DNA from: an uncultured Lachnospiraceae bacterium
Lineage (GTDB): Bacteria > Bacillota > Clostridia > Lachnospirales > Lachnospiraceae
DNA: 62,848 nucleotides
Direction of reading: 5' to 3'
Assembly: GCA_945949045.1 (NCBI GenBank)
Contig: CAMFDG010000007.1
Coordinates: forward strand, 1 to 62,848
Shown here: positions 8,145-38,346 of the stretch, in pieces
How positions within the stretch are numbered: the first letter of the stretch is position 1
How the letters are laid out: every line of letters starts with the position of its first letter
Made by a program: the position numbers and the translations under genes
Notes under the pieces: model-generated
What the model saw: only the letters and a program-made list of their open reading frames with translations
Databases searched by the model: none
What the model was told of the DNA's origin: nothing

Positions 8145-10145
8145 TTACTTGTTCTCGCGATTCTCGTTGCGGTACTGCAGCGGAGTCTTGTCGAAGCTCT
8201 TTTTGAAGGTGCGGGTAAAATGCTCCACATTCTGGTATCCCACAGCATAGGCAATATTCTCAACAGTCATATTCCCGTTCTTCAGAAGCGTCTTCGCCCG
8301 CTTCATACGGATGTGAGCCACATGTTCCCCAAAGGTCTTACCGGATTTATCCTTAATATACTTGGAAATATAAGGCTCCGACAAATGGAACTGATCCGCC
8401 ATGCTCTCTAATGTCACGGTCTGGTAGTTATTCTGAATGTAGTTGAGCATTGCCGTCAAGCGCTCATCCTGTCCCTCTTCATTCTGCTCAATCTGCGGCA
8501 GTTTATTCACAGCAACGATTAGTGCACTGATGGAAGCCCGGATGATATCTTCATCCATACCGACGCCCCAATAGTTCTTTCCGTCACAGGTAATACCCAC
8601 ATAGGCGATTGCCTTGGAGGAGGATCCATGGGAAAGGGCATGCTCCTCGTAGGTAGACAGCTCGTAGCTGATATCGAAGAACTGCTTAAAGGTGTTGCTG
8701 ACCGCATCCAGGCGTCCGTTTCCATTGGCATCCACGATGGTTTTCTTACCGCCAAATACGATCTCCACCTCTGCCATAATACCATCATTCTGCTTAAAGT
8801 GGCAGGAATTGATGGTAAAATAAGGTCGGGGGTTGACGTAATTTTCCTCGAAAATATTATATACCCACTGGGGTGAAAGCTCCTTGTGTTCCTCATCGGA
8901 AACCTGCTTAACCGCATAGCCGACTTCCTCCCGCATAGCCATTGGCAGGGAGATGGAGAAGTTCTGCTTTAAGATATAACTGATTCCACCCTTGCCGGAC
9001 TGGCTGTTGATACGAATCACATCCGAATCGTAGGTTCTTCCCACATCCACCGGATCGATAGGCAGATACGGAACGGTCCAGGTCTTTAAATTCTTTTCCT
9101 CCCGCCATGCCATACCCTTGGCGATGGCATCCTGATGAGAACCGGAAAAAGCGGAAAATACCAGATCTCCAGCATATGGTGCACGGTCTCCTACCTGCAT
9201 TCTGGTAAGACGCTCGTAAGTTTCCCGGATTTTCGGCATATTTTCAAAATCAAGCCCCGGATCCACACCATAGGAAAACATATTCATCGCAATCGTGATG
9301 ATATCCACGTTACCGGTACGCTCGCCGTTTCCGAAAAGTGTACCCTCGATCCGGTCTGCCCCGGCAAGAATACCAAGCTCCGCATCACTGACGCCACAGC
9401 CTCTGTCATTGTGTGGATGCAGACTCAGTACAACATTGTCTCTGTATTTTAAGTTCTTGCTCACATACTCGATCTGGGTGGCAAATACATGAGGCATTGC
9501 CGTCTCTACCGTAGCCGGAATATTGATGATGGCCTTGTGGTCCTGATCCGGCTGCCATACATCTAACACTGCGTTGCAGACATCCACTGCATATTCCACT
9601 TCCGTGCCATGGAAGCTCTCCGGACTGTACTCGAAGGAAAAATCCCCGTCGGTCTCGGACGCCAGTTTCTTTAACAGCTCTGCCCCATCCACAGCCAGCT
9701 TCATGATCTGATCCTTATCCTTCTTAAAAACCTGCTCTCTCTGAGCCACGGAGGTGGAATTGTACAGATGGATCACCGCATGGGGCGCACCCTTTACCGC
9801 CTCGAAGGTCTTCTTGATGATATGTTCTCTGGCCTGGGTCAGCACCTGAACCGTCACATCATCCGGAATCATATCCCGTTCGATCAACGTTCTCATGAAA
9901 ATAAACTCTGTCTCAGAAGCAGCCGGGAAACCAACCTCAATTTCCTTAAACCCGATATCCACCAGCATCTGGAAAAACTCCAGCTTTTCATCCAGGCTCA
10001 TGGGCTCGATCAGTGCCTGATTGCCATCTCTCAGATCCACGGAACACCAGATCGGTGCCTTCTCTATGTGATCCTTCTTCACCCAGTCGTACTCACAAAC
10101 CGGTGGAAGGAAATACTGTCTCTCATACTTGTCAAAATTCTTCAT
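8145..10145 (-). CDS. leuA: 2-isopropylmalate synthase fused to an AraC-type HTH domain
   Basis: The first step of leucine synthesis joins 2-oxoisovalerate and acetyl-CoA. Residues 30-300 are the TIM-barrel with DLRDGNQA (37-44), HPHNDRG metal ligands (His243, His245) and FGNGERTGN (271-279). Residues about 435-550 are the LeuA allosteric domain, ending normally near VAVNKLP. The reading frame then continues for about 115 residues as an AraC/XylS double helix-turn-helix: TLESMADQFHLSEPYISKYI (578-597) and NIAYAVGYQNVEHFTRTFKK (630-649). Normal LeuA of this type is about 550-560 residues, so the 666 total reflects a true in-frame fusion. It could let the enzyme read leucine and bind DNA, but that is inference. 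Confidence 0.95.
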   Translation of the reverse strand: MKNFDKYERQYFLPPVCEYDWVKKDHIEKAPIWCSVDLRDGNQALIEPMSLDEKLEFFQMLVDIGFKEIEVGFPAASETEFIFMRTLIERDMIPDDVTVQVLTQAREHIIKKTFEAVKGAPHAVIHLYNSTSVAQREQVFKKDKDQIMKLAVDGAELLKKLASETDGDFSFEYSPESFHGTEVEYAVDVCNAVLDVWQPDQDHKAIINIPATVETAMPHVFATQIEYVSKNLKYRDNVVLSLHPHNDRGCGVSDAELGILAGADRIEGTLFGNGERTGNVDIITIAMNMFSYGVDPGLDFENMPKIRETYERLTRMQVGDRAPYAGDLVFSAFSGSHQDAIAKGMAWREEKNLKTWTVPYLPIDPVDVGRTYDSDVIRINSQSGKGGISYILKQNFSISLPMAMREEVGYAVKQVSDEEHKELSPQWVYNIFEENYVNPRPYFTINSCHFKQNDGIMAEVEIVFGGKKTIVDANGNGRLDAVSNTFKQFFDISYELSTYEEHALSHGSSSKAIAYVGITCDGKNYWGVGMDEDIIRASISALIVAVNKLPQIEQNEEGQDERLTAMLNYIQNNYQTVTLESMADQFHLSEPYISKYIKDKSGKTFGEHVAHIRMKRAKTLLKNGNMTVENIAYAVGYQNVEHFTRTFKKSFDKTPLQYRNENRENK

Positions 10146-10250
10146 AGTAGTCCTCTTTTCTGATTTAAATAAATATTATCAACTTCTTTGATAGATTTTA
10201 GCATACTGGTATCTATATTAGAATGATTAAATTTATTCAGTTTTCTTGAT

Positions 10251-11594
10251 TTATTTTAATATATTTTGTTTTTCACGGAGAGCCGGCATCCGAAAGATCC
10301 TGATAATAAGCGGAATCACCATGATAAACCATACCAGGGGCTCTGCAACGATCACACCGGTGTAACCCAGCCATGGCACCAGAGTCGCCGCGATCACAAT
10401 CTTGCCAAGCATCTCCAGAAAGCTGGATACCAGAGGTATCACTCTCTCCCCCAGCCCCTGCATTGCATTTCGAAGCACACAGATCACTGCCGTGACAAAA
10501 TAAAAGAGCGTATCAAATTTCAGATAATTGGTTGCAGGCCTTACCACCTCCGGATTGCTGCTTCCGGTAACCAGGTGAACCAGCCATGGTCCAATGGAAT
10601 AACTGGCAACCACCGTCATGGAGCACCAGATACAGGTGTAAAGGATGGCCAGCCAAATGCCCTTTTTCACCCGGTCCATCCGCCCTGCCCCCATGTTCTG
10701 CCCACAGTAGGTGGCCATGGTCTGTCCAAAGACACTGAACATGATCATGAAAATTTCAGAGATTTTACGTGCCGCAGTGTGGGCTACAATGATGGTCTGT
10801 CCCAGCTTATTGATGGCGGTCTGCAGTGTCAGAGAACCAATATTGACCATGGAACTCATAAACCCCATGGACATGCCGGAGCTCATCATCACCTTCAGCA
10901 TCTGCTGATCCTGCTCCACAAAATCCTGCCGCCTGAGGCGAAGAATCTCGTATTTTTTCAACATATAGATCCAACAGATGACAAAGGCCAGCGCCTGGGA
11001 TAAAACAGTTGCAATGGCAGCTCCCCATACTCCTGTTTTAAGTACCACCATCAGAAGCAGATCCCCTGCAATATTGATTACCACCGAAACCAGCAGAATC
11101 ACAAGAGGTGTTACCGTATCCCCCAATGCGCGAAGAACAGCGGCACATGCATCGTACCAAAAGGTCGCAATCAATCCCGCAATGATAATAAAAATATATT
11201 CCTTTGCCACGGAAAACAACTCCTGCGGCACATTCAGAAAACAAAGAATCGGCCGAAGAAAAAGAAGTCCTGCAACAGTCAACGCAATTGAGATCACGGT
11301 TCCCAGAAGAAGGGAGCCCGCGAAAGACTGTCTCACGCCCCTGTCGTCCTTTGCGCCGAAGCGTTGTGCCGTCATTATGGCAAAGCCGTTAGAAAGACCC
11401 AGCAGAAAGCCAATAATCAAATTGCTGAGAGTGGTGGTTGCCCCCACAGCCGCCAGAGAATCCTCTCCCAGACAGGTGCCGACAATTCTCGTATCGACAA
11501 TACTGTAGGTAAGCTGCAGCAGGTTTCCGAGAAAAATCGGAATTGCAAATGATAAAATAAGGGCAGATGGTTTCCCCTTTGTAAGATCCTTCAT
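10251..11594 (-). CDS. MATE family efflux transporter
   Basis: A start at 11594 gives 447 residues. GAGGGTG lies 6 bases before this ATG, inside the end of the upstream gene, so translation is likely coupled. Twelve membrane segments and two MatE repeats are apparent: PSALILSFAIPIFLGNLLQ at the N-terminus and MSSGMSMGFMSSMVNIG midway. MATE proteins export drugs or metabolites using sodium or proton gradients. It is the last gene of a three-gene minus-strand set after the LacI-GGDEF and DUF4422 genes. The substrate is unknown. Confidence 0.93.
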   Translation of the reverse strand: MKDLTKGKPSALILSFAIPIFLGNLLQLTYSIVDTRIVGTCLGEDSLAAVGATTTLSNLIIGFLLGLSNGFAIMTAQRFGAKDDRGVRQSFAGSLLLGTVISIALTVAGLLFLRPILCFLNVPQELFSVAKEYIFIIIAGLIATFWYDACAAVLRALGDTVTPLVILLVSVVINIAGDLLLMVVLKTGVWGAAIATVLSQALAFVICWIYMLKKYEILRLRRQDFVEQDQQMLKVMMSSGMSMGFMSSMVNIGSLTLQTAINKLGQTIIVAHTAARKISEIFMIMFSVFGQTMATYCGQNMGAGRMDRVKKGIWLAILYTCIWCSMTVVASYSIGPWLVHLVTGSSNPEVVRPATNYLKFDTLFYFVTAVICVLRNAMQGLGERVIPLVSSFLEMLGKIVIAATLVPWLGYTGVIVAEPLVWFIMVIPLIIRIFRMPALREKQNILK

Positions 11595-36247: not shown

Positions 36248-37429
36248 TTAGTGATGGAACAGACGGATTCCCGTAAAGCTCATCACCATACCATACTTGT
36301 TGCAGGTCTCAATGACATTGTCATCGCGAACGGATCCGCCCGGCTCGGCAACGTATTTCACACCGCTCTTATGGGCACGCTCGATATTGTCGCCGAATGG
36401 GAAGAAAGCATCTGAACCCAGCGCTACATCGGTGTTCTTATCCAGCCATGCCCGTTTCTCCTCCGCAGTAAATACCTCCGGCTTCACCTTGAAGATCTTC
36501 TGCCATGCACCTTCTGCAAGAACATCCATGTAATCTTCACCCATGTAGAGATCAATGGCATTATCGCGGTCTGCACGCTTGATGCCGTCCACAAACTGAA
36601 GGCCCAGCACCTGCGGAGACTGGCGCAGCCACCAGTTATCAGCCTTAGAACCTGCCAGACGGGTACAATGAATACGTGACTGCTGCCCGGCACCGATACC
36701 GATGGCCTGACCGCCCTTTACATAGCATACGGAGTTGGACTGGGTATACTTCAAGGTAATCATGGCAATCGCCAGATCAATCTTGGCCTGCTGGGTCAGT
36801 TCCTTGTTCTCCGTCACGATATGATCAAAGAATTTATCATCAATGTTCAGCTCATTTCTTCCCTGCTCAAAGGTAATACCGAAAACATCCTTGCGCTCAA
36901 TGGGTGCCGGCTCGTAATCCGGATCAATCTGAATCACACAGTAATTTCCCTTTTTCTTCTGCTTTAAGATCTCAAGAGCCTCATCCGTATAGCCCGGAGC
37001 GATGACACCATCGGAAACCTCCCTCTTAATCACCAGGGCTGTACTCTTGTCACATACATCGGAAAGAGAAATAAAATCTCCGAAGGAGGACATACGATCT
37101 GCACCCCTCGCACGGATATAGGCATTTGCCAGCGGAGAGAATTCCACGTCCATATCATCCACCCAGTAAATCTTCTTCTCCACATCCGAAAGCGGAAGAC
37201 CCACAGCTGCACCGGCCGGTGAAACATGCTTGAAGGAAGTAGCTGCCGGAAGTCCGGTGGCCTTCTTTAATTCCTTTACCAGCTGCCAGCCATTAAAGGC
37301 ATCCAGGAAATTAATGTATCCGGCTCTTCCGGATAGCACCGTAATCGGCAGTTCTCCGCCATTCTGCATGTAAATTCTTGAGGGTTTCTGATTCGGGTTA
37401 CATCCGTATTTTAATTCGTATTCCTGCAT
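36248..37429 (-). CDS. AICAR transformylase (single-domain PurH formyltransferase)
   Basis: 393 residues covering only the AICARFT half of PurH; the IMP cyclohydrolase half is absent. The catalytic Lys-His pair is visible in TSFKHVSPAGAAVG (residues 66-67), and VYAKGGQAIGIGAGQQSR-like substrate-site sequence and SDAFFPFGDNIERA are present. It transfers a formyl group from 10-formyl-THF to AICAR, giving FAICAR. AAGGAGAATCATC precedes the ATG. It starts 11 bases after the PurO-type gene, which supplies the missing last step. Confidence 0.95.
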   Translation of the reverse strand: MQEYELKYGCNPNQKPSRIYMQNGGELPITVLSGRAGYINFLDAFNGWQLVKELKKATGLPAATSFKHVSPAGAAVGLPLSDVEKKIYWVDDMDVEFSPLANAYIRARGADRMSSFGDFISLSDVCDKSTALVIKREVSDGVIAPGYTDEALEILKQKKKGNYCVIQIDPDYEPAPIERKDVFGITFEQGRNELNIDDKFFDHIVTENKELTQQAKIDLAIAMITLKYTQSNSVCYVKGGQAIGIGAGQQSRIHCTRLAGSKADNWWLRQSPQVLGLQFVDGIKRADRDNAIDLYMGEDYMDVLAEGAWQKIFKVKPEVFTAEEKRAWLDKNTDVALGSDAFFPFGDNIERAHKSGVKYVAEPGGSVRDDNVIETCNKYGMVMSFTGIRLFHH

Positions 37430-37440
37430 GATGATTCTCC

Positions 37441-38154
37441 TTATTTGTTCTTGTTTACAATTCTTGACTCGTATTTTCCGGTTTCAATATCAATAAAGCG
37501 GACAAAAAGTGAAACCTTATTATCCTCGTTCAGATTCTCCCATACCATATTGGTAAAGGTGTCGATATCCCCATCGATACCCACCCAGGTCGGCTCTCCC
37601 TCAAAGCTGGGAAGCGGATTGCCGTCCCCCATATAGGTATGAATAAAATGGCCCTCTCCCGCTGCCGGATTAGAGTATGCAAAGCTATAGCGGTTGCAGG
37701 AAGATGGATCCCCATTGTTGCTCTTTAAAATAGACATAGCATAATTGTATTCGCCCTTGTCAATATGTAAAATACCGGAAATACGCGGGGTATAATTCGG
37801 TGCATCCGGCTCAAATTCTCTGGTACGAAGCGACTGCTCAAAGGTCTGCTGCTTGTCCATCAGTTCGTAAATGGTGTCGGTCTGATCTCCGTTCGTCACG
37901 ATCGTCTTGTTGCCCAGGACGCGAACCGGCGCGTAGATAATCAGGCTCGGATCCTCCAGCTTGGACTCATCAAAGGCCTGGGTACGGATCCCCTCTCCGT
38001 CCTCTACAAAAATACGGTTACGGCTGTTGGCACTGCGCCCCATAATAAAATAAGCGGTTACCGCCTTTTTCCCATCTTTGGAACGACCGATTACAATGCC
38101 GCGTCCCGGATAGGTTGTTGCACTTAATTCACTGCTTAACGCTTTCTTTTGCAT
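37441..38154 (-). CDS. purO: IMP cyclohydrolase, PurO-like (archaeal type)
   Basis: 237 residues. Matches the IMP_cyclohyd/PurO family: SATTYPGRGIVIGRSKDGK at the N-terminus, AYFIMGRSANSRNRIF, and TPRISGILHIDKGEYNYAM. It closes FAICAR to IMP, the final step of purine synthesis, normally done in bacteria by the N-terminal part of PurH. Archaeal-type PurO plus stand-alone AICARFT is a known clostridial arrangement. AAGGAGAAGTC precedes the ATG. It is first in a two-gene operon behind a ZTP riboswitch. Confidence 0.93.
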   Translation of the reverse strand: MQKKALSSELSATTYPGRGIVIGRSKDGKKAVTAYFIMGRSANSRNRIFVEDGEGIRTQAFDESKLEDPSLIIYAPVRVLGNKTIVTNGDQTDTIYELMDKQQTFEQSLRTREFEPDAPNYTPRISGILHIDKGEYNYAMSILKSNNGDPSSCNRYSFAYSNPAAGEGHFIHTYMGDGNPLPSFEGEPTWVGIDGDIDTFTNMVWENLNEDNKVSLFVRFIDIETGKYESRIVNKNK

Positions 38155-38231: not shown

Positions 38232-38257
38232 ACACCCGGACTGAACCATCTTGCGAT

Positions 38258-38336
38258 GTCTGCCCAGACGGTCGGCTTCATTTCTTTCTTCTCCGTTATA
38301 CTCCACGTGGTTCTCCACTTATCCGTCAGTCATATA
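38258..38336 (-). promoter_or_regulatory. ZTP riboswitch (pfl motif)
   Basis: On the minus strand, in order: GACUGACGG, GUGG-AGAA-CCAC hairpin, GUGGAGUAU, a variable linker, and GCCGACCGUCUGGGC. These correspond to the ZTP aptamer landmarks (GACUGGCG, hairpin, GGGGAGC, CCGCCUGGGC). GACGG and CCGUC form the pseudoknot with compensatory changes relative to GGCG/CGCC. It precedes purO-AICARFT, the expected folate/purine context: ZTP and ZMP accumulate when 10-formyl-THF is short. Confidence 0.9.
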
Positions 38337-38346
38337 ACTATCTATT

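Follow-up and report, generated by a model that had tools for sequence, protein, structure and literature searches.

Does an enzyme of leucine biosynthesis that runs on into a DNA-binding domain control its own gene? The question is raised by one reading frame of the window, by which we mean the whole 62,848-nt stretch analyzed here (contig CAMFDG010000007.1 of assembly GCA_945949045.1, from an uncultured Lachnospiraceae bacterium). A preliminary description of this DNA had seen in that frame a 2-isopropylmalate synthase (LeuA) continuing into an AraC-family double helix-turn-helix (HTH) and had proposed a leucine-responsive regulator of leuA and branched-chain genes. Here, we describe the composition of the protein, its spread and phylogeny, and a conserved site in its own promoter, and weigh what these imply for the control of leuA.

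Composition of the fused protein

The window protein is a complete LeuA, allosteric domain included, with an AraC-type HTH_18 domain at its C-terminal end. As the preliminary description had it, the enzyme runs in frame into the double HTH, in a single open frame of 666 codons with every Pfam domain above its cut-off:

8145..10145, minus strand: leuA-HTH fusion ORF, 666 aa plus stop, with an ATG start and without internal stop
9222..10055, minus strand: catalytic HMGL-like domain, residues 31-308 (Pfam 237.4 bits, cut-off 29)
8967..9167, minus strand: IPMS_D2 post-catalytic domain, residues 327-393 (Pfam 113.9, cut-off 27)
8499..8876, minus strand: LeuA_dimer allosteric domain, predicted to bind leucine, residues 424-549 (Pfam 85.6, cut-off 24.9; alignment to M. 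tuberculosis IPMS)
8463..8498, minus strand: linker of variable sequence, residues 550-561 (dN/dS 0.136, the weakest constraint among the parts measured)
8166..8402, minus strand: AraC-type double HTH (HTH_18), residues 582-660 (Pfam 73.3, cut-off 33.6)

The LeuA part belongs to the PRK03739 type, matches the solved M. tuberculosis IPMS (1SR9) with 509 bits, and scores 795.8 against NCBIfam NF002991 (2-isopropylmalate synthase; cut-off 455), a match that spans residues 5-548 only. R39/D40, H243/H245, GNGERTGN and H337, which correspond to the catalytic motifs of the solved IPMS, do not vary among 30 proteins aligned, 28 of them fused and two unfused, and G477, L479, L496, Y499 and A503 align with leucine-pocket residues of the M. 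tuberculosis enzyme. The retention of the allosteric domain suggests that the fused protein would respond to leucine. In the tail, the Pfam HTH_AraC model covers residues 622-660 (48.1 bits, cut-off 26.6), and solved AraC-type domains such as 1bl0 and 6swi match the HTH part. The cupin-type N-terminal sensor domain of AraC/XylS regulators is absent by Pfam, with LeuA in its place.

Four HMGL-like genes are present in the window's genome (2.16 Mb, 80% complete), the fourth being L004; among the three scored, the fusion is the only clear LeuA found, and the two others fall below every NCBIfam cut-off shown. The same genome encodes, on contig C32, a 488-aa HMGL-like protein of the isopropylmalate/homocitrate synthase kind (L002), below all cut-offs shown, whose gene adjoins a GntR-like regulator gene as judged by eye.

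Spread, selection and phylogeny

A survey of LeuA homologues for an HTH_18 tail, suggested in the preliminary description, found a full-length fused match in at least 89 of 397 genomes of the same family, the window's own included, and some match in 395 of the 397. By record title, the fusion is present in Roseburia faecis, R. hominis, Merdimonas faecis, Agathobacter, two Mediterraneibacter species and Ruminobacter amylophilus. Among the matches listed, all those to non-fused LeuA end at residues 548-588, and the longer ones mostly read through a stop codon or, in one genome (G163), reach the contig end. With identical proteins counted once, the fused set comprises 103 distinct full-length proteins; a stop between the domains, raised earlier as a possible flaw, is absent from the window's frame, and the junction is no local assembly error. 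In a sample of the class (196 genomes), a full-length fused match occurred in four genomes of the same family and in one of another family (G471).

Several records deserve separate mention. The fused leuA of G471 (L291), on a contig of 22.8 kb, has an operator of its own (score 34.1), and the genome also has an ordinary LeuA, 53% identical to the query; the fused copy may reflect transfer or contamination. A contig titled Muribaculaceae (L012) carries a fused leuA close to that of a Blautia-titled record from the same isolate series, NALB (L045), and its title may be wrong. In two genomes of the same family, LeuA and HTH stand in different frames at the linker: in L082 (G061), LeuA ends in TAA, the HTH frame follows, and a clear promoter site is kept (28 of 29), and in L087 (G078), LeuA ends shortly after a run of eight A and the promoter site match is weak (21 of 29). 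These splits may be errors, true splits or frameshifting.

Selection on the tail was estimated from twelve disjoint pairs. Purifying selection is as strong on the HTH as on the catalytic domain, with dN/dS of 0.059 for both; residues 309-423 gave 0.080, the allosteric domain 0.090, and the linker 0.136, the last from 144 codons only. Ten HTH positions (Y592, S594, F605, G636, Y637, E641, F643, R645, F647 and P655) have a frequency of 1.00, to two decimals, in the 103 fused proteins.

For phylogenetic comparison, the leuA set was used without L001, L049 and L051. The fused group includes L084, cut by a contig end, and the split genes L082 and L087; length alone had placed all three under unfused, and they were regrouped from the sequence behind the LeuA frame before the tree, the motif tests and the T-box count. 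The tree of the LeuA part (148 rows) requires at least nine changes between fused and unfused, six of them forced by starred branches, compared with a mean of 36.9 after shuffling. Eight unfused rows are nested among fused ones (L083, L085, L086, L093, L095, L097, L100 and L115), some on weakly supported branches; these read most simply as losses after one gain, the change count itself being blind to gain versus loss. Conversely, three Ruminobacter rows (Gammaproteobacteria; L022, L023 and L024) fall inside the fused clade of Lachnospiraceae. Gene order is common to L023 and L024, the downstream neighbors are shared by L022 as well, and a neighboring gene in L023 and L024 resembles enterobacterial NrdG by eye; because of this shared order and the NrdG-like neighbor, the Ruminobacter fusion is likely to be a transfer rather than contamination.

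A conserved site before the fused gene

Upstream of the window's fused gene, the following elements were delineated:

10222..10259, minus strand: candidate operator O1, TTAAAATAAATCAAGAAAACTGAATAAATTTAATCATT (no mismatch to the family pattern, to which the window's own site contributed; none expected in shuffled sequence)
10195..10205, minus strand: extended -10, TATGCTAAAAT (O1 core starting 47 nt before its TG)
10170..10201, minus strand: second operator-like element O2, CTAAAATCTATCAAAGAAGTTGATAATATTTA (read by eye; overlaps and follows the -10)
10152..10158, minus strand: putative ribosome binding site AAAGAGG (by eye)

O1 is a 38-bp element; in the window, it overlaps with the stop codon of the gene upstream, which is MATE-like by eye, and reaches into the place of the -35. 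It is the likely target of the fusion's HTH and, as such, the new element of this comparative analysis. Of 83 non-redundant fused rows, the 69 whose site scored at least 21 were used for promoter statistics, which therefore describe promoters that have the site. The aligned promoters share TTAAAAtAnATCAAtaAAAnTGATTAAAtTTaatCATT, followed by 16 weakly conserved bases and TGTGnTAnnAT. Measured from where the O1 core starts, the TG of the extended -10 is 47 nt away in 63 promoters, 46 nt in five and 42 nt in one; at least five of the six bases of TGnTAnnAT are matched in all 69, and the -35 place matches TTGACA at a mean of 3.14 of 6 positions, compared with 2.65 in shuffled sequence. Two fused leuA genes, L036 and L053 (G292; L053 is from the window's genus), lack a standard O1 and have TTGACT 17 bp before TAGCAT; in L036, a loose core pattern is matched higher upstream.

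Within O1, a direct repeat with a spacing of 23 bp and an inverted core are both present, and these two readings compete. Its tail comes in two variants, type I ending in ATCATT and type II in CACTT or near, split mostly by clade (three tree changes). An apparent covariation of protein and operator (residue 610 versus operator type, 82 of 85) was rejected, resting as it does on these three changes and not being independent of phylogeny. In type II promoters (e.g., L031, L072 and L074), the operator lies within a hairpin followed by a T-run, GGAAAGTGA...TCACTTTCC TTTTT (by eye), and may also serve to terminate transcription of the gene upstream. O2-like sites exceeded the 95% null in 35 of 67 promoters and the 99% null in 31 of 67, in two registers, either on the -10 or about 15 bp behind it.

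Across the tree, the conserved site in the leuA promoter goes together with the HTH. In a leave-relatives-out motif test, with models refined on fused rows less than 80% identical to the row tested, O1 exceeded the 99% null before 94 of 105 fused leuA genes versus 1 of 42 unfused ones (Fisher p 5e-25, kinship ignored); L017, with 85 bp upstream, was set aside in the motif tests. Six independent pairs on starred branches went in the same direction 5.4 times on average and never in the opposite one (sign test, median p 0.031, range 0.031-0.25). In a stricter test, a model refined within a single clade and applied to the other clades detected the site before 36 of 63 fused versus 2 of 42 unfused genes, with a median pair p of 0.125; both tests set out from a consensus derived from all rows, and neither is therefore fully blind. 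Under the leave-relatives-out test, O1 is below threshold in all eight nested unfused rows, and site and HTH are thus absent together as well as present together. In the three Ruminobacter genomes, fusion and site are both found, the site being the best genome-wide match in each (that of L022 is in the model). Chance or composition as the source of the site was tested, and rejected, against order-1 Markov versions of each upstream region and against coding stretches.

The eleven fused genes below threshold are L036, L037, L053, L071, L073, L148, L149, L151, L153, L156 and L158. The site of L071 (G007) lies farther upstream, L037 and L149 fall just short of the threshold, and several divergent fused rows have degenerate versions of O1 at best. 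In three of the 94 positive cases (L035, L072 and L150), the best match was on the other strand.

A T-box motif (GGTACCGCG) was found within 700 bp upstream of 26 of 42 unfused versus 14 of 106 fused leuA genes, and together with the operator in 13 fused genes. Rfam reported a T-box in all 17 scanned loci with the motif and in none of three without it. In seven fused loci (L026, L027, L048, L061, L062, L133 and L147), the operator lies upstream of the T-box leader, as expected of a promoter element. This distribution suggests that control of leuA at the RNA level was replaced by control at the protein level. Another RNA element, a ZMP/ZTP riboswitch (57.8 bits), lies at 38255..38343 on the minus strand of the window, ahead of two genes at 36248-38154 that resemble purH parts by eye.

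Targets and mechanism of the putative regulator

To look beyond leuA, a sequence-only site model (R1, 68 sites) was used with 150 candidates scored per genome, so that weak sites may be missed. The best match in the window's genome is the leuA promoter (E 1.5e-5), and in 24 of 25 fused genomes, all except G292, the best genome-wide match likewise lies upstream of leuA, many of these sites having helped to build R1. Across 25 unfused genomes, the best E was 0.0096 or weaker, one genome had no match, and none of the matches listed was at leuA.

Branched-chain genes in general, proposed as targets in the preliminary description, are not supported as such. No convincing site was found in 34 ilvC and leuD/aconitase loci (L207-L240) of ten fused genomes, with about 1.5 kb searched on each side (best score 11.6, in L213); ilvC was not found in the window's own, 80%-complete genome. 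Before leuB, 2 of 27 genomes exceeded the 99% null of 5.9, both in genus g18: G341 (L193 / L284), with a score of 15.0, the same layout to the -10 and an R1 E of 0.0065, and G017 (L287), with 7.6. The regulon may extend to leuB in that genus. Twenty regions around weaker genome-wide matches contained no branched-chain gene recognized by eye from N-termini. One R1 match away from leuA (G047:C11:3484-3507; 20.8 bits, E 0.002) lies between two divergent genes, the right-hand one PspA-like by eye, with no recognizable branched-chain gene there. The regulator thus looks largely autogenous. That enzyme and transcription factor are one molecule, the core of the earlier proposal, is well supported by comparative evidence, namely purifying selection on the HTH and a promoter site that tracks it.

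Taken as a whole, we consider it probable that LeuA-HTH is a leucine-sensing autogenous regulator of its own promoter. The protein would be a working LeuA and, at the same time, a dedicated transcription factor of its own gene. LeuA dimerizes; with each subunit ending in a DNA-binding domain, a dimer would therefore have two AraC-type domains to present to the long, two-part O1. Class II activation by AraC-type proteins involves an operator at the -35 place, at a fixed distance to the -10, and the position of O1, in place of a poor-consensus -35 and at a fixed distance to an extended -10, would correspond to that geometry. LeuA-HTH is probably an AraC-like activator, activation being perhaps about twice as probable as pure repression. 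Most likely, the enzyme free of leucine would activate leuA by way of O1, and leucine binding to the allosteric domain would end activation or shift the protein to O2, whose position on the -10 or just behind it would suit repression. A further, tentative step is that one leucine-binding event sets both catalysis and the choice between O1 (activating) and O2 (repressing), and that this switch has partly replaced the T-box in Lachnospiraceae; if true, the level and the activity of the enzyme would be set by one conformational change.

The closest competitor to activation is purely autogenous repression: leucine-bound LeuA-HTH on O1 or O2 would block its own promoter, in the manner of BirA, and would have no activating role. 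Biosynthetic genes are commonly repressed by their end product, and this reading would account for the O2-like sites that 35 of 67 promoters have above the 95% null, at the -10 or just past it. O1, however, is the better conserved of the two, and its constant spacing to an extended -10 that lacks a consensus -35 is the layout of an activated promoter; moreover, L036 and L053, which lack the standard O1, have a TTGACT at 17 bp instead. We regard pure repression as rather unlikely. It is less probable still that O1 belongs to another transcription factor and that the HTH tail has a different DNA target or none. Some fused genes do lack a recognizable site, and the binding of O1 by the HTH is itself a comparative reading, but the nested unfused rows are without the site, the site travels with the fusion into Ruminobacter, which belongs to another phylum, and strong model matches occur almost only at leuA, which fits a dedicated factor.

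Two remaining explanations deny the tail any regulatory role. A structural or vestigial appendage without DNA binding might be suggested by the lineages that seem to have lost the HTH and kept LeuA; it is very improbable given that the HTH is as constrained as the catalytic domain while the linker drifts, that ten HTH_18 positions are fixed across the 103 proteins, and that the promoter site is missing from the nested unfused rows. An assembly or frame artefact, for which the different frames of LeuA and HTH in L082 and L087 might speak, is refuted by the survey, the distinct open fused proteins including strain records of Roseburia hominis, R. faecis, Merdimonas faecis and two Mediterraneibacter species, and we give it practically no weight.

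To our knowledge, few self-regulating enzymes have been known so far. No description of a LeuA-AraC fusion was found in the titles and abstract beginnings that could be searched, subscription journals being mostly outside reach. The available parts of a paper on amino-acid synthesis in the gut (PMC9026213) and of one on an AraC regulator with leuA2 among its targets (PMC5107987) make no mention of a LeuA-HTH fusion. The fusion occurs in many gut bacteria and comes with a computed binding site, with lineages that naturally lack both HTH and site, and with an apparent transfer of operator and fusion to another phylum; the use of an enzyme's feedback site as the sensor of a transcription factor is therefore directly testable.

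Relative to known systems, the LeuA part has its catalytic, post-catalytic and allosteric domains all in common with enzymes of the PRK03739/NF002991 type, including M. tuberculosis IPMS (1SR9); the NF002991 model ends at residue 548, and the fusion adds about 100 residues that form the AraC-type DNA-binding domain. With AraC/XylS regulators, the protein shares a C-terminal double HTH_18 behind an N-terminal dimerizing part, here predicted to bind ligand, and a long, two-part operator that extends to the -35 place, as does that of AraC itself, and that comparative evidence places for activation. It differs from them in that the ligand-binding part is a complete biosynthetic enzyme rather than a cupin-like sensor and in that its own promoter is the only general target found. 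T-box leaders of Bacillota likewise control leuA in the same bacterial family, but they read uncharged tRNA in the leader RNA, whereas the fusion would act on initiation. In yeast, Leu3 senses alpha-isopropylmalate, the product of the LeuA step, as a separate factor; leucine-pathway transcription is tied to the LeuA step in both cases, and here the enzyme itself carries the DNA-binding domain. Trigger enzymes such as BirA and PutA, which regulate their own pathways, combine a metabolic enzyme and a DNA-binding regulator in one polypeptide, and LeuA-HTH resembles them in joining both in one chain, with a candidate site in its own pathway; it differs in the enzyme, the pathway and the C-terminal AraC-type domain, and in that a feedback-inhibition domain would double as the sensor.
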